Source: Prevotella sp. (GTDB lineage Bacteria; Bacteroidota; Bacteroidia; Bacteroidales; Bacteroidaceae). From it: DNA of 64,000 bases. Positions 25,541 to 58,032 of this stretch are shown here, one piece after another. The notes under the pieces are model-generated. The model ran no database searches. It saw only the letters and a program-made list of their open reading frames with translations, and was not told the origin of the DNA. The translations under genes were made by a program, and so were the position numbers. The stretch is from assembly GCA_017548605.1 (NCBI GenBank), contig JAFYZT010000044.1:1-64000 (forward strand). The letters run 5' to 3'. Every line of letters begins with the position of its first letter. Position 1 is the stretch's first letter.

Positions 25541-25625
25541 GGGGCAAGGAGCAAGGGGCAAGAGATTACCCTGCTGTCCATTAAACCTATGAAAACCTAA
25601 GATAACTTAGAGTATCTTAAGAAAG
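25541..25625 (+). repeat. purine-rich and cctaag-type repeat filler before recG
   Basis: ggggcaaggagcaaggggcaagag is followed by attaccctgctg, then by aaaacctaagataacttagagtatcttaag. The gcaagg unit is the same as at 41930, 44530, 44610 and 56733. It begins right at the DJ-1 gene's stop. Confidence 0.7.
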
Positions 25626-25649
25626 CGAAATAATAAAAAACACGCTCAA

Positions 25650-31866: not shown

Positions 31867-32340
31867 TTACTTTTCTATCAATGCCACAGCGTAGGCACTG
31901 ATACCCTCTTCACGTCCTGTGAAGCCGAGGCGTTCTGTGGTAGTAGCCTTGATGGAAACGTTATCTTCATCAATACCCATCACCTGTGCCAGACAAGCGC
32001 GCATGGCAGGCACATGAGGGTTGATTTTAGGTCTTTCAGCACATACCGTCACATCGATATTGCCCACATGATACCCTTTTGTGGCCAACAGATCCACCGT
32101 TTGTTTGAGGATGATTTTACTATCCATGCCGAGCGTGTCGTCTGACGTATCAGGGAAATGATAGCCTATGTCACGCATATTGGCTGCTCCGAGTAAGGCA
32201 TCGCAAACGGCATGGATGAGGACGTCGGCATCGCTGTGACCCAACAAACCCAATGAATGGGGTATTTTTATCCCTCCTAACCACAGGTCACGGTCAGGCA
32301 CCAAGCGGTGTACATCGAAACCCATGCCTACTCTAATCAT
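31867..32340 (-). CDS. ispF: 2-C-methyl-D-erythritol 2,4-cyclodiphosphate synthase
   Basis: Fifth step of the MEP isoprenoid pathway; forms the cyclic diphosphate from CDP-ME-2-phosphate with release of CMP. The 157-aa product has the metal ligands in GFDVHRL (D9, H11) and LGHSDADV (H43 region), and the conserved ATTTERLGFTGREEG C-terminal segment. It lies directly after porV, the same order as in Porphyromonas gingivalis (porU, porV, ispF). The other MEP gene in the window is dxr at 56817. Confidence 0.96.
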   Translation of the reverse strand: MIRVGMGFDVHRLVPDRDLWLGGIKIPHSLGLLGHSDADVLIHAVCDALLGAANMRDIGYHFPDTSDDTLGMDSKIILKQTVDLLATKGYHVGNIDVTVCAERPKINPHVPAMRACLAQVMGIDEDNVSIKATTTERLGFTGREEGISAYAVALIEK

Positions 32341-32397
32341 TGTGGTTTGTAATTTGAAGGTTGAGGAACAGATTACCCCTTAATTGGAAATAATAAA

Positions 32398-38959: not shown

Positions 38960-39844
38960 TTACTCAGCGGCGGGAGCTTCTTCTTCCTTAGCAGGAGCAG
39001 CCTCTTCCTTGACGGGAGCAGCTTCTTCTTTAGCAGGAGCAGCCTCTTCCTTGGCAGGAGCAGCCTCTTCCTTACGGGCGCGACGAGTACGGCGCTGTGG
39101 TCTTTCTGCAGCTTCTTCAGCCTGCTCAGAGGCAGCTTTCTCGTCAGCTTTCTCAGCCTTGCGTTCTTCCAGTCCCTCGGCGATAGCCTCGCAGCAAGCT
39201 GTCAGGATGACGTTGATGCTGTCCTTAGCGTCGTCGTTGGCGGGAATCACGAAGTCCACCTCATTGGGGTCGGAGTTGGTGTCGACGATGGCGAACACGG
39301 GGATACCGAGGCGCTGTGCCTCTTTCACTGCGATGTTCTCCTTCATTACGTCAACCACGAAGAGGGCAGAGGGCAGACGGGTCAGGTCGGCGATAGAACC
39401 GAGGTTCTTCTCCAACTTGGCGCGCTGACGTGTCACCTGCAGCAACTCACGTTTCGAGAGGTTGGCATAAGTACCGTCACTCATCAGCTTGTCGATGTTC
39501 GACATTTTCTTCACAGCCTTGCGGATGGTGGGGAAGTTGGTGAGCATACCGCCCGGCCAGCGTTCAATCACGTAAGGCATGTTGACGCTCGTGGCCTTTT
39601 CAGCGATGATGTTCTTGGCCTGTTTTTTAGTAGCTACGAAAAGAATTTTCTTTCCTTGCTTGGCAATCTGCTTCAAGGCTTCAGCGGCCTCGTCAATCTT
39701 AGCCACGGTCTTGTGCAGGTCGATGATATGAATGCCATTGCGCTCCATGAAGATGTAGGGAGCCATGGCGGGATTCCACTTGCGGCGGAGGTGTCCGAAA
39801 TGGCAACCAGCCTCCAGCAGCATATCAAAATTTGTTCTTGACAT
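38960..39844 (-). CDS. rpsB: 30S ribosomal protein S2 with repetitive C-terminal tail
   Basis: Small-subunit protein bS2-type, 294 aa against about 240 in E. coli. Residues 1 to about 235 are normal, with the family start SRTNFDMLLEAGCHFGH and the KKQAKNII segment. The extra tail begins with an Arg-rich stretch (RPQRRTRRARK) and continues with a seven-residue repeat KEEAAPA, four to five times, ending EEEAPAAE. The tail is encoded by a 21-bp DNA repeat. Acidic or Ala/Pro/Lys tails on S2 are common in the phylum, but the repeat number is likely to vary between strains. Confidence 0.97.
   Translation of the reverse strand: MSRTNFDMLLEAGCHFGHLRRKWNPAMAPYIFMERNGIHIIDLHKTVAKIDEAAEALKQIAKQGKKILFVATKKQAKNIIAEKATSVNMPYVIERWPGGMLTNFPTIRKAVKKMSNIDKLMSDGTYANLSKRELLQVTRQRAKLEKNLGSIADLTRLPSALFVVDVMKENIAVKEAQRLGIPVFAIVDTNSDPNEVDFVIPANDDAKDSINVILTACCEAIAEGLEERKAEKADEKAASEQAEEAAERPQRRTRRARKEEAAPAKEEAAPAKEEAAPVKEEAAPAKEEEAPAAE
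38988..39074 (-). repeat. 21-bp tandem repeat encoding the S2 tail
   Basis: Four near-identical 21-bp units (gcaggagcagcctcttcctt plus one base) encode KEEAAPA units. The third unit carries a few synonymous or V/A changes. Confidence 0.85.
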
Positions 39845-39960
39845 TGTTTGTTGATTTAAAAAATGTGTTTACTTTCCTTTTAGTTTCTCTGAGAACCAAC
39901 CGTCAGGTAACTGCAGATGACAGGTCCTCACGGTTTGGATGCTAAACTGCGTTAATAAAG
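39845..39960 (-). promoter_or_regulatory. structured leader before rpsB
   Basis: On the minus strand CCAAACCGT (about 39938-39930) can pair with ACGGTTGG (about 39905-39898), enclosing a further possible stem. The segment is unlike the low-complexity filler next to it and leads straight to the S2 start. It could be a ribosomal-protein autoregulatory leader. This is inference from one sequence. Confidence 0.4.
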
Positions 39961-40037
39961 GGGTGAGAGATGAGGGGTGAGAGATTACTCCACAGACTAA
40001 TGTCTACACTCCTACACTTCTGAACTCCTACACTCCA
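39961..40037 (+). repeat. low-complexity repeat mosaic between rpsI and rpsB
   Basis: ggggtgagagatgaggggtgagag is followed by the linker cagactaatgtctac and by actcctacacttctgaactcc steps. The same three modules occur elsewhere in the same order, but here the order runs opposite to the flanking genes. Confidence 0.8.
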
Positions 40038-40043
40038 AAAAAA

Positions 40044-40902: not shown

Positions 40903-41053
40903 TTTAAACTGTTGATTTTCTACTAAAAAACGTTTTTTATTCACTACCTGGACGGCGATTCACTAACCACCATGCCCGGCCAAAGGCACAGCTATTAACA
41001 CGCTCATCCCCGGGGGCCTAAGACTCCCCCGAAATAATCGGACTGCAAAGGTA
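40903..41053 (-). promoter_or_regulatory. rplM promoter and structured L13 leader
   Basis: TACCTTTG on the minus strand (41053-41046) is an exact -7 box, giving a start near 41038 and a leader of about 135 nt. The leader is GC-rich and has a strong G/C stem candidate (GGGGGAGTC...GGCCCCC, about 41030-41005). An L13 leader motif has been described in Bacteroidia, and this fits by position; the match was not computed. The rest of 41054-41279 shows no gene. Confidence 0.55.
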
Positions 41054-41279
41054 CTACCTTTTTATGTGATAGCCGCCATGAGCGCACTGCCAAATGCAGA
41101 GAATTATATTTTGTTAACTGTTTTAACATTATTTATAAACGCTTTTTCGTGGAGAATGTTGAACAAAAGACATCCCGGCGAGCACATCATGCACGTTTCT
41201 GTCGGAAATTGTAATGAATAAGAAAGGGAACGCGTTAGGTCTTAACTAAAAGCAAGGGAAAGTAAAAATTCAAATTAAT

Positions 41280-41314: not shown

Positions 41315-41875
41315 ATGAACAGATATACCCAAGCCATATTGCTTTCTGCCTCGACATTGCGGATGTTGCCGCACATTGTATTGTATATGGCATACTGCAA
41401 GCGGATAGACCCCGACTTGGTGAAATACCAAGACAGGAAGACGGGCGTGCGGAACTTTATTAAGGTTTGCACGCGCGAGCGCGTATTTCGCAACCTTTTC
41501 TATTACCGTCTGGGCGAATACCGGTCGGTGTGGGTGAAATGGATGCTGCCACCCGAACGGTCGCTCCACATCTGGTGTCCGAGCATCGGCGAGGGGGCGC
41601 ATTTCGAACATAACTACGCCACCTACCTCAATGCCGAGAGCATAGGCAAAGATTTCTACTGTCTTCAGTTGGTGACCCTCGGTAACGACAAGGATGGTCG
41701 CCGCCCCACCATCGGCGACAATGTGAAGATTTTTACCGGTGCAACCGTCTTCGGCGGAATTACGATTGGTAACCACGTGACCATCGGAGCTGGAGCCGTG
41801 GTGAACATGGACGTGCCCGACAACTGCACGGTGACGGGAAATCCGGCGGTAATCAGAATAAGGGGTGAGAAGTGA
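41315..41875 (+). CDS. hexapeptide-repeat acetyltransferase (serine acetyltransferase-like)
   Basis: Left-handed beta-helix acyltransferase of 186 aa, similar to CysE/serine acetyltransferase-like proteins of polysaccharide loci. Hexapeptide steps run from about 95 to 180 (IGDNVKIFTGATVFGGITIGN and following), and the end PDNCTVTGNPAV is family-typical. The catalytic histidine is probably the one in HFEHNY. I start at 41315; that leaves almost no 5' UTR, so a later start (an internal ATG near 41365) is possible. It heads a four-gene plus-strand glycan cluster and may modify a surface sugar rather than serine. Confidence 0.82.
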   Translation: MNRYTQAILLSASTLRMLPHIVLYMAYCKRIDPDLVKYQDRKTGVRNFIKVCTRERVFRNLFYYRLGEYRSVWVKWMLPPERSLHIWCPSIGEGAHFEHNYATYLNAESIGKDFYCLQLVTLGNDKDGRRPTIGDNVKIFTGATVFGGITIGNHVTIGAGAVVNMDVPDNCTVTGNPAVIRIRGEK

Positions 41876-42033
41876 GAAGTGAGCACCCACCCTGACCCTC
41901 CCAAAGGGAGGGAGTGAAGAAGGTGCAAGGAGCAAGAGATATGCCAGTAGGGTAATGACCTAACTCCTTAATTACATTCATCAGTCGTCACTAAACAATC
42001 AACACTCAACACTCAACATTCAACATTCCAAGA
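41876..42033 (+). repeat. mosaic intergenic repeat: REP-like hairpin, gcaagg and caacattcaa modules
   Basis: In order: gtgagaagtgag, the REP-like hairpin (41883-41921: cacccaccctgaccctccc facing gggaggg), ggtgcaaggagcaagag, atgccagtagggtaatgacc, taactccttaatt and finally caacactcaacactcaacattcaacattc, which ends next to the LicD ATG. The same order recurs at 44511-44744. Confidence 0.85.
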
Positions 42034-42849
42034 ATGGATGGAAATAAGACAGACCATGAGGCGTTACGGCAGCGGTTCAACCCGGAAGGGTCGGAACTAC
42101 GTCAGATGCAGTTGGTGATGCTCGACATCCTCAGCGAAGTGGATGCCATCTGCCGTCGCCACGACATACCTTATTGGCTGAGTAGTGGCACGCTGCTCGG
42201 TGCATGGCGGCACGACGGGTTTATTCCCTGGGATGACGACCTCGACATAGAGATGCGGCGCGAAGACTACCTGCGGCTGCTGCCCATCCTTCGTGGGGAA
42301 CTGCCCGAACACCTGGCCCTGCAGACCATGGACGACGACCCCAACTATTTCTTTTTCTATGCCAAGATACACGACCGACGCACCTACTTAGAGGAAGGCA
42401 ACAACTACGACCGTCGTTGGAAGGAACGTGGTATCTACATCGACATACTGCCCATGGAACGGCAGCGGATTTGGCTCCACAAGATTGGTGAGAAGGCACA
42501 GGGTCATGTGTACAAGATATGGCGCACGTCAACCGATGATGAGCGGAGTATGCGCAAGGTGCGGCGCATCACGCAGTTCAACAAAAAGGTCACCTACCCC
42601 ATTCTGCGTGCGCTGTGTAAGCTGTCGGGTGCACGTACATGGACAAGCGGCATGGGCATGCCCTTCCACAAGCCGAGGTATGACGAAGACATCTTTCCAC
42701 TGGCCGAACATGTGTTCGAGGGACGGAAGTTCCCCGTACCCCACGACAGCGACCACCACATGCAGCTGCTTTTCGGTGACTGGCGACAGCTGCCCAATCT
42801 TGACGAACTGCACCCACACGCCAGGAAAATTAAAATATTAAAAGATTAA
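42034..42849 (+). CDS. LicD-family phosphotransferase
   Basis: 271-aa cytoplasmic protein of the LicD/fukutin nucleotidyltransferase-like family, which transfers phosphocholine or a similar phospho-substituent onto surface glycans. The signature YWLSSGTLLGAWRHDGFIPWDDDLDI (about residues 48-73; catalytic DDD) is intact. It lies between the acetyltransferase and a flippase gene, so its target is probably the same surface glycan. The donor is unknown, since no choline or CDP-sugar genes are in view. Confidence 0.9.
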   Translation: MDGNKTDHEALRQRFNPEGSELRQMQLVMLDILSEVDAICRRHDIPYWLSSGTLLGAWRHDGFIPWDDDLDIEMRREDYLRLLPILRGELPEHLALQTMDDDPNYFFFYAKIHDRRTYLEEGNNYDRRWKERGIYIDILPMERQRIWLHKIGEKAQGHVYKIWRTSTDDERSMRKVRRITQFNKKVTYPILRALCKLSGARTWTSGMGMPFHKPRYDEDIFPLAEHVFEGRKFPVPHDSDHHMQLLFGDWRQLPNLDELHPHARKIKILKD

Positions 42850-43067
42850 AGGGGGCAGGGAGCAGGGGGCAAGAGAGGTGAGAGGTGAGGGGTGAGAGAA
42901 TAGTTGAGGGGGAAAGGGGCAGGGAAGATTAAATAATTAAAAAATTAAAAGATTAAAGGAACAAGGGGGCTATTGTCTAAACTCCCAAACTTCTAAACTC
43001 CCAAACTCCAAAAACTCATCACTCGTAACTCATCACTCGTAACTCATCACTGTACACTAAACAACAA
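42850..43067 (+). repeat. mosaic intergenic repeat before the flippase gene
   Basis: Modules in order: gggggcagggagcaggg, gaggtgagaggtgaggggtgagag, aatagttgaggggg, attaaaaaattaaaagattaaagg, the linker ctattgtctaaac, actcccaaacttctaaactccc, aactcatcactcgt written three times, and tgtacactaaacaacaa ending at the ATG. No gene is seen. Confidence 0.85.
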
Positions 43068-44510
43068 ATGGAATCACTGAAAGAGAAGACGGCAAAAGGA
43101 CTGTTCTGGGGCGGCATGAACAACGGCATGCAGCAGCTCATCGGACTGGTCTTCGGCATCATCCTCGGACGATTGCTCTCGCCCGACGATTATGGTATGA
43201 TTGCCATGATCAGCATCTTCTCGCTCATCGCCAACGAGTTGCAGAGCAGCGGCTTCAAGACGGCACTCGTCAACCTGCAGCACCCAAAGCACGAGGACTA
43301 CAATGCGGTGTTCTGGTTCAATGTGATGGCTGGGGCGGTGATATACATTATCCTCTTCTTCTGTGCTCCACTCATCGCTAACTACTATCACCAGCCCGAC
43401 CTTGTCCCCCTCTGCCGATACGCTTTCCTCGGTTTTGTATTCTCGAGTTTCGGGACAGCACAGTCGGCCTATCTCACGAAGAACCTGAAGATAAAACAGA
43501 TAGCAGAGACGGGCATCACCGCCGTGCTCTTCTCCAGTATCGTGGGAGCGTTGATGGCCTGGCAAGGATTCTCCTACTGGTCACTGGCCACGCAGACCAA
43601 CTTGTTTATCGCCACCAATACCATCCTGCTATGGTACCACTCTTCATGGCGGCCCACCCTGCATATCAACCTGCGGCCCGTAGCCCGTATGTTCAAATTC
43701 AGTTGCAAAATTCTGGCCTCGGCCATCTTCGGTCATATCAATGTCAATGTGCTCAACATCCTTTTGGGGCACTATTTCACCGCCCGCGACGCAGGTAACT
43801 ACAACCAGGCCTACCAATGGAACTTCAAATGTTTCTCTTTGGTACAAGGTATGACCACCCAGGTGGCCCAGCCCGTGTTCGTGGAACTGTCGGGACAACG
43901 TGAACGACAGTTGGCCGCCTTCCGTAAGATGATGCGCTTCACCGCCTTCATCGCCTTCCCACTGCTTTTCGGATTGTCCTTGGTGTCGCACGAGTTCATC
44001 GTCATCACCATCGGCGAGAAATGGTTAAATAGTGCCAGTCTGATGCAGATACTCTGCATCGGCGGAGCCGTGATGCCCCTGTCCACCCTGATGACCAATA
44101 TGGTTATCAGTCACGGACGTAGCAATATCTATATGTGGTCGACCATCGCTCTCGGTTTGGCACAGATAGGTCTGATGATGCTGCTCTATCCATACGGCGT
44201 GAGCACGATGGTCATCGCCTACACCCTGTTGCAGATAGCATGGGTTCTGGTGTGGTGGTGGTTTGTGCACCGACTGACAGGCTACCGCCTGACCTCACTG
44301 CTGAAAGACACACTGCCCTTTGCCGGTACTGCTGCGGTGGTCATGATAGTCACCCACTTCGCCACGCTGCCCATCGAGTCGAACATTCTCCTGTTGTTGG
44401 CCCGCATCGTACTGGCCGCCCTGCTCTATTTCTTCATCATGAAGATAGCCAACGCCGTGATACTGAAAGAATGTATCGGATTCTTGAAGAATAAAAGAGG
44501 TGAGAGGTGA
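43068..44510 (+). CDS. polysaccharide flippase, Wzx/MATE-like
   Basis: Inner-membrane protein of 480 aa with about 12-14 hydrophobic helices, of the lipopolysaccharide/O-antigen flippase group (WzxC-type, MOP superfamily). The N-terminal SLKEKTAKGLFWGGMNNG and FGIILGRLLSPDDYGMIAM are typical of this group. It probably moves lipid-linked glycan units across the membrane. It is the third gene of the cluster after the acetyltransferase and LicD genes. No polymerase (Wzy) gene is in view. Confidence 0.88.
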   Translation: MESLKEKTAKGLFWGGMNNGMQQLIGLVFGIILGRLLSPDDYGMIAMISIFSLIANELQSSGFKTALVNLQHPKHEDYNAVFWFNVMAGAVIYIILFFCAPLIANYYHQPDLVPLCRYAFLGFVFSSFGTAQSAYLTKNLKIKQIAETGITAVLFSSIVGALMAWQGFSYWSLATQTNLFIATNTILLWYHSSWRPTLHINLRPVARMFKFSCKILASAIFGHINVNVLNILLGHYFTARDAGNYNQAYQWNFKCFSLVQGMTTQVAQPVFVELSGQRERQLAAFRKMMRFTAFIAFPLLFGLSLVSHEFIVITIGEKWLNSASLMQILCIGGAVMPLSTLMTNMVISHGRSNIYMWSTIALGLAQIGLMMLLYPYGVSTMVIAYTLLQIAWVLVWWWFVHRLTGYRLTSLLKDTLPFAGTAAVVMIVTHFATLPIESNILLLLARIVLAALLYFFIMKIANAVILKECIGFLKNKRGER

Positions 44511-44744
44511 GGGGTGAGAGAATAGTTAAGGGAGCAAGGAGCAAGAGATATGAGGGATGAGGGATGAGGGATGAGAGGTGAGGAGTGAGAGAATAGTTGA
44601 GGGAGCAAGGGACAAGGAGCAAGAGATGTGCCAGCAGGGTAATGGCTTAACTTCTTAACTCCTTAACTTCTTAACTCCTTAATTATATTCGTCATCGCGA
44701 AGCGACCATTCAACATTCAAAAATCAACATTCAAAATTCAAAAA
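44511..44744 (+). repeat. mosaic intergenic repeat before the glycosyltransferase gene
   Basis: Modules in order: gaggtgaggggtgagagaatagtt, agggagcaaggagcaagag, atgagggatgagggatgagagg, a second gagagaatagttgagggagcaagg, gtgccagcagggtaatggc, ttaacttcttaactcc repeated, and caacattcaaaaatcaacattcaaaattcaaaa, which meets the ATG. No gene is seen. Confidence 0.85.
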
Positions 44745-52267: not shown

Positions 52268-52400
52268 ATTTAGGAGTTTAGGAGTTTGGGAGTTTAGGAG
52301 TTTGGGAGTTTGGGAGTTTGGGAGTTTAGACAATAGTCTGAGGAGTTTGGGAGTGTAGGAGTCTGGGAGTGTAGACAATAGTCTGAGAAATTAGGGAGTG
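52268..52400 (-). repeat. aactcc-type repeat array directly before gmk
   Basis: On the plus strand aggagttt/gggagttt steps repeat about seven times, then the linker tagacaatagtctg, then gggagtgtagg steps and a second copy of the linker. On the coding strand this is an actccc/aactcc array ending a few bases before the gmk ATG. It matches the array at 1-140. Confidence 0.88.
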
Positions 52401-52441
52401 TAGGGGTCTTGAAGTTGGCCGGGGTGGGTATCTTGTACCAC

Positions 52442-56729: not shown

Positions 56730-56732
56730 AGG

Positions 56733-56780
56733 GGCAAGGGGCATGGAGCAAGGAACAAGGGGCAAGGAGCAAGAGAATCC
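56733..56780 (+). repeat. gcaagg-type repeat between rimM and dxr
   Basis: ggggcaaggggcatggagcaaggaacaaggggcaaggagcaagag follows the rimM stop; the remaining bases to the dxr ATG include attaactcgtcaact, the start-proximal type of module. Confidence 0.85.
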
Positions 56781-56816: not shown

Positions 56817-57971
56817 ATGAAACAACAGATATGCATACTCGGTTCAACAGGTTCCATAGGCACACAAGCCTTAGAGGTCATTGCCGAGCATCCTGACCGC
56901 TATGAGGTCTACTGCCTGACCGCCAACCGTCGATATGAACTGTTGGCTGAACAGGCACGTCAATTTCATCCTTCCGCCGTGGTCATCGCCGACGAGCGTT
57001 ACTACGAGCCTTTGCAGGACCTGCTTGAAGACCTGCCCGATGTGAAGGTGTACGCCGGACGTCAGGCCTTGGATGAGATTGTCGAGGCTGACCCTATCGA
57101 CATGGTGCTCACCGCCATGGTCGGTTTCGCCGGTCTGTCGCCCACCCTTCATGCTATCCGTGCGCGGAAGAAAATCTGTCTGGCCAATAAGGAGACGCTT
57201 GTCGTGGCCGGTGAACTGGTTTGTCGCCTGTCACAGGAACATCATGTACCCATTCTTCCCGTCGACAGCGAACACTCCGCCATCTTCCAAAGCATCGTTG
57301 GTGAGGGTGACAACGAGATAGAAAAGATTCTGCTGACAGCCAGTGGCGGTCCTTTCCGCACTTTCACGAAGGAGCAGCTGGCCCATGTGACGAAGAACGA
57401 TGCGCTGAAACATCCCACCTGGGATATGGGCGCGAAGATTACCATCGACAGTGCCACAATGATGAACAAAGGGTTTGAGGTGATGGAAGCCTCATGGCTC
57501 TTCGGGGTGCCTGTCGACCGTATCCAGGTGTTGGTGCACCCCCAGAGCATCATACACAGTGCCGTGCAGTTTGCGGACGGTGCCGTGAAGGCTCAGCTCG
57601 GTGTACCCGACATGCGTCTGCCCATACAGTACGCCTTTTCCTTTCCCGAGCGTCTGTCGCTCTCAGCAGCACGCCTTGACCTGACCACCCACCCCTTGGA
57701 ATTCTTTGAGCCCGACGTGGAGAAGTTCCGCTGTCTGGCCCTGGCCTTCGAAGCCATGAACCGTGGCGGTAACATGCCCTGTATCGTCAATGCGGCCAAT
57801 GAGGTGGTAAACCGCGCCTTTCTCGAAGACCGCTGCTCATTCCTCGCCATGGGCGATATCATTGCCAAGACCATGGACCGCGCCACTTTCGACGCCAAAC
57901 CCGACTACGACACCTATGTGGCTACAGACACCGAGGCACGGCGTATCGCGGAGGAACTACTCCCGAACTAA
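56817..57971 (+). CDS. dxr: 1-deoxy-D-xylulose 5-phosphate reductoisomerase
   Basis: Second step of the MEP isoprenoid pathway; converts DXP to MEP with NADPH. The 384-aa product has the NADPH site ILGSTGSIGTQALEV (about 7-21), LANKETLVVAG (about 122-132), the metal and substrate region PVDSEHSAIFQ (about 147-157) and the C-terminal helical domain. Together with ispF it shows that this organism uses the MEP route. It lies between rimM and rseP. Confidence 0.97.
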   Translation: MKQQICILGSTGSIGTQALEVIAEHPDRYEVYCLTANRRYELLAEQARQFHPSAVVIADERYYEPLQDLLEDLPDVKVYAGRQALDEIVEADPIDMVLTAMVGFAGLSPTLHAIRARKKICLANKETLVVAGELVCRLSQEHHVPILPVDSEHSAIFQSIVGEGDNEIEKILLTASGGPFRTFTKEQLAHVTKNDALKHPTWDMGAKITIDSATMMNKGFEVMEASWLFGVPVDRIQVLVHPQSIIHSAVQFADGAVKAQLGVPDMRLPIQYAFSFPERLSLSAARLDLTTHPLEFFEPDVEKFRCLALAFEAMNRGGNMPCIVNAANEVVNRAFLEDRCSFLAMGDIIAKTMDRATFDAKPDYDTYVATDTEARRIAEELLPN

Positions 57972-58032
57972 AAACTCATCAACAAAGAACTCAACAACTC
58001 AATAACTCACGAACTCATAAACTCAACAATAC
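57972..58032 (+). repeat. aactcat/aactcaac repeat directly before rseP
   Basis: The whole gap consists of aactcatcaac, aactcaacaactcaat, aactcacgaactcataaactcaac steps running up to the rseP ATG. No promoter box is apparent. Confidence 0.8.

Follow-up and report, generated by a model that had tools for sequence, protein, structure and literature searches.

Introduction

Arrays of heptamer direct repeats are known from scattered bacteria, and neither their spread nor their bias toward start codons has so far been explained. In heterocystous cyanobacteria, short tandemly repeated repetitive (STRR) sequences and small dispersed repeats have reportedly been described by Mazel and by Elhai, with heptamer arrays in which small unique elements are nested. 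Other described cases are the TAACTGA heptamer repeats of marine Beggiatoaceae, Cyanobacteria and five Bacteroidetes (MacGregor 2015, PMC4679880), the GGGAATC and GGGGAYT heptamers of Xanthomonas and Nostoc (Rehm 2015, PMC4692102) and BrickBuilt, a miniature inverted-repeat transposable element (MITE) of Porphyromonas gingivalis (Klein 2015, PMC4596501). In a survey of satellite DNA in prokaryotes, those with short repeats that occur again and again across a genome were suspected of arising by something like transposition (PMC6749651). Here we describe the 7- and 8-nt tandem arrays of a 64,000-nt stretch of Prevotella sp. DNA (GenBank assembly GCA_017548605.1, contig JAFYZT010000044.1, positions 1 to 64,000 of the forward strand; hereafter, the window), where they occupy the three gaps of a glycan gene cluster at 41876-44744. 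We report that the arrays belong to a class widespread in the source genome and its sisters, and that at both ends of genes they tend to obey a polarity rule, the array strand being G-rich when read away from the gene. Our literature search, which covered titles and the openings of abstracts and lay mostly outside the subscription literature, returned no description of such arrays in Prevotella.

Materials and methods

The window lies on contig 40 of the source genome (G000), a 3.25-Mb metagenome-assembled genome (MAG) that is 92% complete; array statistics were taken from a sample of 740,888 bases, or 23% of it. Comparisons were made with the sister genomes G222 (81% complete) and G182, with the more distant complete congener G023, and with G268, G009 and G283; completeness ranged from 81 to 99% across the genomes in profile searches for transposases and reverse transcriptases. 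Arrays were called with Tandem Repeats Finder, dinucleotide shuffles of the same gaps serving as the null, and genes were called with a purpose-written codon-usage script that placed some starts late (for example, at 42106 instead of 42034).

Polarity was scored by whether G or C predominates on the array strand when one reads away from the closest gene end, with a cut-off of |skew| of at least 0.34, which omitted 80 of 498 arrays from the count by gap class and 80 of 500 from the count by distance class. These counts pool the samples of G000, G222 and G182, with G023 excluded, and are not fully independent because several arrays may share one gap. The test of order in two-array gaps omits five gaps of mixed order. 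Loci L190-L194, which were fetched around pattern matches, were excluded from every statistic.

Results

In the source-genome sample we detected 263 intergenic arrays, against 17.2 per shuffle; these lie in 118 kb of intergenic DNA, as compared with 108 arrays in 623 kb of coding sequence. Periods of 7, 8 and 14 nt were the most frequent (34, 34 and 32 arrays), followed by 10 and 16 nt (23 each), and none was shorter than 7. The corresponding intergenic counts were 141 versus 8.0 in G222 and 190 versus 10.6 in G182, and fewer in G023 (74 versus 13.0, with one array of period 7). Among co-directional gaps of 50-600 nt, arrays were carried by 84 of 217 in the source genome, 50 of 114 in G222, 48 of 100 in G182 and 10 of 107 in G023. 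Because arrays are this common in the co-directional gaps of the three sister genomes, the glycan gaps belong to a class that is widespread. Array neighbours include ribosomal, purE, dusB and lgt genes as well as glycan genes, and within the window further copies occur at 1-140, 25541-25562, 39963-39981 (the rpsI-rpsB gap), 52269-52409, 56731-56773 and 57966-58029. The link to glycan loci that had been proposed in a first-pass annotation of this DNA is thus not upheld.

The arrays lie against gene ends: 196 of 500 in the three genomes were within 10 nt of one, compared with 128 expected by random placement (maximum 149). When an array overlapped a stop codon, its outward strand was G-rich in 59 cases and C-rich in 4; the counts were 63 and 19 at 0-40 nt after a stop, and 20 and 13 at 41-80 nt. 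Similarly, 67 arrays located 0-20 nt before a start were G-rich outward and 4 were C-rich, which is to say that the sense strand was C-rich in 67 of 71. Beyond 80 nt of either gene end no bias was seen (53 G, 56 C). Within 40 nt the rule held in each class of gap: in 99 of 115 arrays on the stop side and 73 of 84 on the start side of co-directional gaps, in 23 of 28 in convergent gaps and in 10 of 12 in divergent gaps. Placement and orientation relative to gene ends are therefore strongly non-random in the sampled parts of the genomes, in line with the consistent placement relative to start codons first claimed for the cluster; on the start side, many arrays stop 3-8 nt short of the ATG.

Gaps with one skewed array were G-rich outward in 118 cases and C-rich in 50. 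Those with at least two, read on the + strand, ran from G-rich to C-rich in 62 cases and from C-rich to G-rich in 3, with 27 of single polarity and 5 mixed. Two ends acting independently, with a fitted p of 0.82, predict 62.0, 3.0 and 27.1 for the first three of these classes, so that a G-then-C order in 62 of the 65 opposed cases is what such ends would give. A polarity set by replication strand, which would give one polarity per region, was rejected on the same 62 to 3 ratio. Protection of operons from Rho by G-rich arrays after stops is also disfavoured, since convergent gaps, where termination would be harmless, show the same polarity.

We observed the rule outside the three genomes as well. 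At 79 other loci in Bacteroidales, of the 41 skewed arrays that overlapped a gene end or lay no more than 20 nt from one, 34 obeyed it (9 of 12 on the start side alone), as did 16 of 33 beyond 60 nt, and two-array gaps were ordered G then C in 9 cases and C then G in 2. G023, which has few skewed arrays, does not follow the rule: of its 24 skewed arrays, those on the stop side of co-directional gaps were 3 G and 4 C, and those on the start side 6 G and 2 C, on the sense strand. As a translation-free control the ends of 28 tRNAs were considered, but the two arrays that lay within 80 nt of them were too few.

On the start side the rule amounts to a G-poor leader in which spurious starts are rare, and on the stop side the stop codon is often furnished by the array itself. 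Arrays in the start zone contained start triplets at 0.019 per nt as found, against 0.088 if flipped, and arrays that overlap stops contained stop triplets at 0.116 per nt as found, against 0.029 if flipped. The G content of 70 array-bearing leaders was 3-6%, compared with 15-16% for other leaders. In Bacteroidetes, Shine-Dalgarno sequences are generally absent and unstructured leaders favoured, and Shine-Dalgarno pairing was found to be non-functional in Prevotella bryantii (PMC3155529).

The arrays draw on a restricted vocabulary. In the source genome, 72 period-7 arrays used 25 dominant words, the minimum in 500 draws from array-free gap sequence being 61, and the ten commonest words headed 76% of the arrays (null maximum, 29%). 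Concentration was similar in G182 and weaker in G222 (25 words in 45 arrays; null minimum, 33). Words of the source-genome arrays also headed arrays in G222 for 60% of the period-7 and 58% of the period-8 arrays, and in G182 for 76% and 29%, respectively. The pattern TTAACTYCTTAACTYCTTAACT occurred in 17 of 100 genomes searched, the source genome included, all 17 being among the 60 of the same genus; its reversed control, itself another microrepeat, occurred in 5 of 100.

A 28-nt core, GATATGCCNGYAGGGTAATGRCTTAACT, has ten copies in the source genome at no more than 3 mismatches (reversed control, 0). A shorter core pattern picked up a single relative in G222 and had no match in G182, G283, G268 or G009, and a profile search (nhmmer) gave 20 matches at E<=5, 13 of them in the source genome and 5 in coding sequence, against 2 for the reversed sequence. 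All ten cores are preceded by a G-rich array, nine of GGRGCAA type and one of GTGAG. Tandem TTAACTYC units come after nine of the cores, and a single such unit after the copy at 41938 in the window. Nine cores read with their flanking genes and one (L279) against (two-sided p 0.02). Three copies are at glycan sites; of the 16 neighbouring genes outside the window sites, 15 were scanned: purE, genes for a PAP2 protein, a Kdo-kinase-like protein, a glycosyltransferase, phosphoglycerate mutase, uracil-DNA glycosylase and an SU10-like capsid protein, dusB, dprA, ham1, lgt, ychF, and genes for a YitT protein, a speA-like decarboxylase and shikimate kinase. Most likely the core was copied, because separate slippage is unlikely to yield a unique sequence in a shared, fixed order.

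The (G)n-core-(C)n architecture and the ten copies could suggest a mobile element of the MITE or repetitive extragenic palindrome (REP) kind, in which the G-rich left arm, the core and the C-rich right arm form one transposable palindrome with terminal inverted repeats. Some copies are indeed symmetric, such as one in G222 (L205) with GGAGCAA and TTGCTCC arms around a core. However, 70 arm pairs shared words no more than re-paired arms did (0.039 versus a null mean of 0.058), the core copies are mosaic without evident fixed ends, and the order of paired arrays fits independent ends. Searches for the Y1 (RAYT-type) transposase, PF01797, returned none in the source genome, G222 or G023 and one each in G182, G268 and G009, other transposase families not being searched. 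The edges of orthologous gaps are too diverged for empty sites, and with them target-site duplications, to be defined. We regard such an element as quite unlikely.

Other dispersed sequences were also seen. One core copy (L278; contig 41 of the source genome, at about 41.1 kb) lies directly downstream of the SU10-like major capsid gene, apparently in a prophage or its remnant. Spread of the core by phage was rejected despite this copy: a 24-base core pattern had no exact match in viral contigs, and 11 GGRGCAA matches there shared no core by eye. Non-tandem 13-mers common to at least four gaps numbered 272 in the source genome, 0 in each of five shuffles and 138 in the array-poor G023; dispersed non-tandem repeats are therefore not special to array-rich genomes. 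A hairpin family, CCACCCCGACCCTCCCAAAGGGAGGGAG, whose own commonest 13-mer was found in 19 sampled gaps of the source genome, is likewise dispersed; it has relatives in the sister genomes, often lies just 3' of stop codons, and may be either a terminator or a separate repeat family. An AGAC-N4-GTCT palindrome, considered as a general array head, occurred 4 times in intergenic and 9 times in coding sequence of the source-genome sample, too few for a claim of enrichment.

The segment 41876-44744 is mostly coding, and the features of interest are its three gaps, 41876-42033, 42850-43067 and 44511-44744 (Table 1). The four genes of the cluster encode a hexapeptide acetyltransferase, a LicD-family protein, a polysaccharide flippase (Pfam Polysacc_synt_3) and a 338-aa protein without a Pfam match. 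The gaps hold 7- and 8-nt arrays of GTGAGRG, GGRGCAA, TTAACTYC, AACTCCY and CATTCAA, and two of them hold the core.

Table 1. Positions of array elements and related features in the window
Position	Strand	Feature
39959-40038		Array element in the ribosomal rpsI-rpsB gap, outside any glycan locus; none in G222, similar in G182
41864-41883	+	GTGAGAA units, overlapping and supplying the stop (TGA 41873-41875) of the acetyltransferase gene (41315-41875)
41884-41913	+	Dispersed hairpin module, CCCACCCTGACCCTCCCAAAGGGAGGG
41922-41936	+	GGRGCAA array, two units, one mismatch
41938-41965	+	Copy of the 28-nt core, then a single CTAACTCC unit
41989-42030	+	CACTCAA/CATTCAA array with a CACTAAAC step, stopping 3 nt short of the ATG (42034) of the LicD-family gene
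42850-42920	+	G-rich units (GGGGGCA, GTGAGRG) immediately 3' of the LicD stop; the LicD 3' end is a AATTAAAAGATTAA-type repeat
42970-43009	+	CTATTGTCT head (42970-42978) and AACTCCC/AACTTCT octamer array
43013-43062	+	Period-14 array of CTCATCACTCGTAA, and CACTAAAC, stopping 5 nt short of the flippase start (ATG 43068)
44500-44518	+	GTGAGRG array, overlapping and supplying the stop of the flippase gene (43068-44510)
44531-44623	+	GGRGCAA and RTGAGGG arrays
44625-44652	+	Second core copy of the cluster (GATGTGCCAGCAGGGTAATGGCTTAACT)
44646-44682	+	TTAACTTC/TTAACTCC octamer array
44697-44743	+	Spacer GCGAAGCGA with a CATTCAA-type array that stops 1 nt short of the ATG (44745) of the fourth gene
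52269-52409	-	Octamer array of AAACTCCC/AAACTCCT with heads of AGACTATTGTCT; sense strand C-rich; ends at a start codon

The tandem units reported for these gaps are real. Far above chance in the window were GTGAGRGGTGAG, with 13 matches at no more than 1 mismatch (0.59 expected), GGRGCAAGGRGCAAG, with 12 (0.03 expected), and AACTYCNNAACTYC, with 18 (0.02 expected). Three overlapping GTGAGRGGTGAG matches form a GTGAGGG-type array on the + strand at 1291-1316, inside the minus-strand open reading frame 220-2172. As single words, CAACATTCAA (13 matches at no more than 1 mismatch, 6.0 expected; 13 reached in 1 of 100 shuffles) and CACTAAAC (5 matches, 1.6 expected; 5 reached in 3 of 100) exceed chance only modestly; their units stand in tandem at 42000-42030 and nearly so at 44711-44741. 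By itself CCAGTAGGGTAATG had 2 matches at no more than 2 mismatches (0.30 expected; 2 reached in 9 of 100 shuffles). The further claim, that all three gaps hold the modules in a common order, fails in detail: gap 42850-43067 is without the CCAGTAGGGTAATG core and CAACATTCAA, its GGGGGCA/GGAGCAG units precede GTGAG, and gap 41876-42033 has a single AACTCC unit. What the gaps do share is G-rich arrays near the stop and C-rich ones near the start, and the apparent common order arose because the polarity rule at gene ends generates such an order.

Possibly, G-rich and C-rich arms could pair in the mRNA as intercistronic hairpins that stabilize or end transcripts, and minimum-energy folds do pair the arms over long stretches in two of the three gaps. 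Yet the fold z of the three gaps was only -1.1 to -1.7, the mean z of 73 array-rich gaps was -1.19 versus -1.85 for 90 of 189 array-free gaps, and arm words were not complementary beyond chance. Selection for hairpins was rejected on these grounds, and we give this explanation scarcely any credence.

The four cluster genes are collinear in G222, at 83-86% identity, and the array words differ in all three gaps, as do array lengths (45, 154 and 167 nt in the window; 22, 65 and 27 nt in G222). The 3' ends of genes are rewritten in the process: the window acetyltransferase and flippase end in the TGA of GTGAG arrays, whereas in G222 the former continues through GGRGCAA-type units and the latter through a CCCTCCC hairpin. 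Across 25 gaps with the same neighbours in the window and G222, arrays of at least 20 nt were present in both at 5, in the window only at 1, in G222 only at 7 and in neither at 12, and mean gap identity was 0.75 without arrays and 0.50-0.55 with them. For 17 gaps compared with G182 the counts were 2, 1, 3 and 11, and identity was 0.63 without arrays and 0.65 in the two shared-array cases. Between sister species, orthologous arrays thus differ strongly. Arrays can also persist, as the rpsI-rpsB array, similar in G182 and absent from G222, indicates. In G182, CCCTAAA, CACTAAA and CACTCAA arrays, some beside starts, occupy orthologues of window gaps 25541-25649 and 32326-32397 and occur at L229; CCCTAAA is the plant telomere word.

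These comparisons bear on the two functions first suggested for the modules. Recombination sites at which gene cassettes enter or leave glycan loci might account for ten near-identical dispersed cores, and MacGregor (PMC4679880) suspects a role in rearrangement for Gramella heptamer regions. The collinear genes argue against this, as a test of this locus only, and so do the 13 of 25 gaps that carry arrays in one or both genomes while their neighbours stayed adjacent. Moreover, there is no array within 45 nt after the last cluster gene in the window or G222, and the G182 alignment of the region ends at window position 41138, where the window side is array-free. We consider cassette sites distinctly improbable. 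The second suggestion can be put in the form that start-proximal C/A-rich arrays are word-specific signals for translation or for the stability of the mRNA, which S1 or some other RNA-binding protein would read and which would be selected at glycan and other genes. It draws on the C-rich sense and the short distance to the ATG noted above, and the same paper proposes such a role for the TAACTGA repeats of Beggiatoaceae. However, G222 has other words or much shorter arrays at the same genes, and array gaps, judged against shuffles, fold no better than array-free ones. Words in the rpsI-rpsB gap also differ between congeners (by eye, AACTTTG in L054, AATGGAG/AATTGAG in L066, AATTGAT/AATTGAC in L079 and AATTTAC in L129), composition alone appearing conserved. 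A word-specific signal is therefore unlikely; a role at the level of composition upstream of starts, G-poor and A/C-rich, fits.

Three other features of the window were recorded. On the minus strand at 39845-39950 lies a conserved leader of rpsB (S2), made up of a GTTTAGYATCYAAAC palindrome and, after it, a stem. In an alignment of 19 Bacteroidales sequences, 10 of the 11 pairs predicted for this stem show two-sided changes in one sequence or more; the leader had no Rfam match at E<=1 and is a candidate ribosomal-protein leader. The L13-Bacteroidia ribosomal protein leader (RF03127) lies at 40957-41030, also on the minus strand, and a 21-nt repeat (7 codons) at 38982-39074, in the 3' end of rpsB, encodes a repetitive S2 tail.

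Discussion

In the samples of the three sister genomes, the arrays share a small vocabulary, tend to abut gene ends, often overlap gene 3' ends, follow a polarity near gene ends and differ between sisters while gene order is kept. We think it probable, though far from assured, that they are 7- and 8-nt non-coding repeats of the STRR or long simple-sequence-repeat (SSR) type that colonize intergenic gaps across this rumen Prevotella lineage, by slippage, recombination and a filter imposed by translation. Unit number would grow and shrink by slippage; recombination or template switching among copies at different sites may carry words and cores from gap to gap; and translation would filter the survivors at gene ends, so that mainly G-poor, start-codon-poor, unstructured strands would persist upstream of an ATG, and the strand that carries TGA or TAA at a 3' end. 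The ordered modules of the glycan gaps could then reflect the two end filters together with the dispersal of a single (GGRGCAA)n-core-(TTAACTYC)n composite. This reading implies no function particular to glycan genes.

Several points weigh against this account. Polarity before starts is not monotonic with distance (9 G versus 6 C at 21-40 nt, 28 versus 9 at 41-80 nt), arrays that overlap a start are G-rich outward by only 7 to 3, and TGAYGAG is inward near starts (3 of 3 within 40 nt). GGRGCAA has no stop triplet and yet is G-outward in all 26 arrays nearest a stop, 11 of them beyond 40 nt, so that supply of stops cannot be the whole cause; inside called genes it is likewise sense in 8 of 8. 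Downstream of stops, array-free sequence leans slightly toward C (C 0.22-0.24, G 0.18-0.21), and G-rich arrays there are therefore no mere imitation of their surroundings. Slippage from random seeds alone cannot yield a shared vocabulary, and a copying step has to be inferred. Finally, the main support comes from our own gene-calling script, from counts in which gaps are shared and from a MAG that is 92% complete.

An activity resembling telomere capping, which upon breakage and rejoining of a gap would extend 3' DNA ends outward with G-rich 7- or 8-nt units, would make (G)n-core-(C)n gaps the place where two ends, each capped on its own, were fused head to head. Compatible with it are the outward-G rule at starts and stops, the independent arms, the shared species-specific vocabulary and the unchanged gene order. 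We detected no RVT_1 reverse transcriptase (PF00078) in the source genome, G222, G182 or G268, matches being present in G009 (2) and the array-poor G023 (1). This argues against telomerase-like synthesis of the arrays, and capping would need another polymerase or slippage-prone repair synthesis; we give it very little credence.

The polarity rule, with the two ends of a gap acting independently, explains the modular look of the gaps and makes a vague pattern testable. The two-ended rule and the overwritten gene 3' ends seem to us the parts most worth pursuing, with GGRGCAA after stops singled out as a case outside translation filtering. Ordered modules in such gaps should not be read as regulatory elements of the adjacent genes.

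The start-side half of the rule has been reported for TAACTGA (MacGregor 2015, PMC4679880); in the literature searched, so far as its text was accessible, we found no statement of the two-ended rule. As described there, the TAACTGA repeats are intergenic heptamer direct repeats, lie in the main genome mostly just before starts and in one orientation, and have flanking genes without a common function; the Bacteroidetes cases mix in other heptamers and have near relatives that are repeat-free. The arrays here share the single orientation right before starts, where their sense strand is C-rich in 67 of 71. Unlike that single word, of which we found no tandem (TAACTGATAACTGA) in any of four genome samples, the Prevotella arrays comprise dozens of words in one genome, in species dialects, include 8-nt words and dispersed cores, and occur at both gene ends with opposite sense polarity. 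The Xanthomonas and Nostoc heptamers are likewise intergenic G-rich arrays, mostly between the same genes, with lengths that vary between close species, but represent one G-quadruplex-prone word type per lineage, two-ended polarity and cores not being among the traits described in the available text (Rehm 2015, PMC4692102). Like the arrays, BrickBuilt is a tandem repeat in the intergenic DNA of Bacteroidales, and it is flanked by a leader and a tail; it differs in its 23-nt unit and inverted ends as a defined MITE (Klein 2015, PMC4596501), as against 7- and 8-nt units in mosaic copies with arms not complementary beyond chance. The Prevotella arrays lack terminal inverted repeats in general, a few symmetric copies apart. 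They have the traits of STRR and long SSR sequences, a class with units of 5-11 nt: short tandem units, with periods of 7, 8 and 14 nt the commonest, a mainly intergenic location, and the same units at many loci. They differ from the cyanobacterial STRR in phylum and in words, and are in our judgement a rich variant of the STRR or heptamer-repeat kind, not a device of glycan loci.

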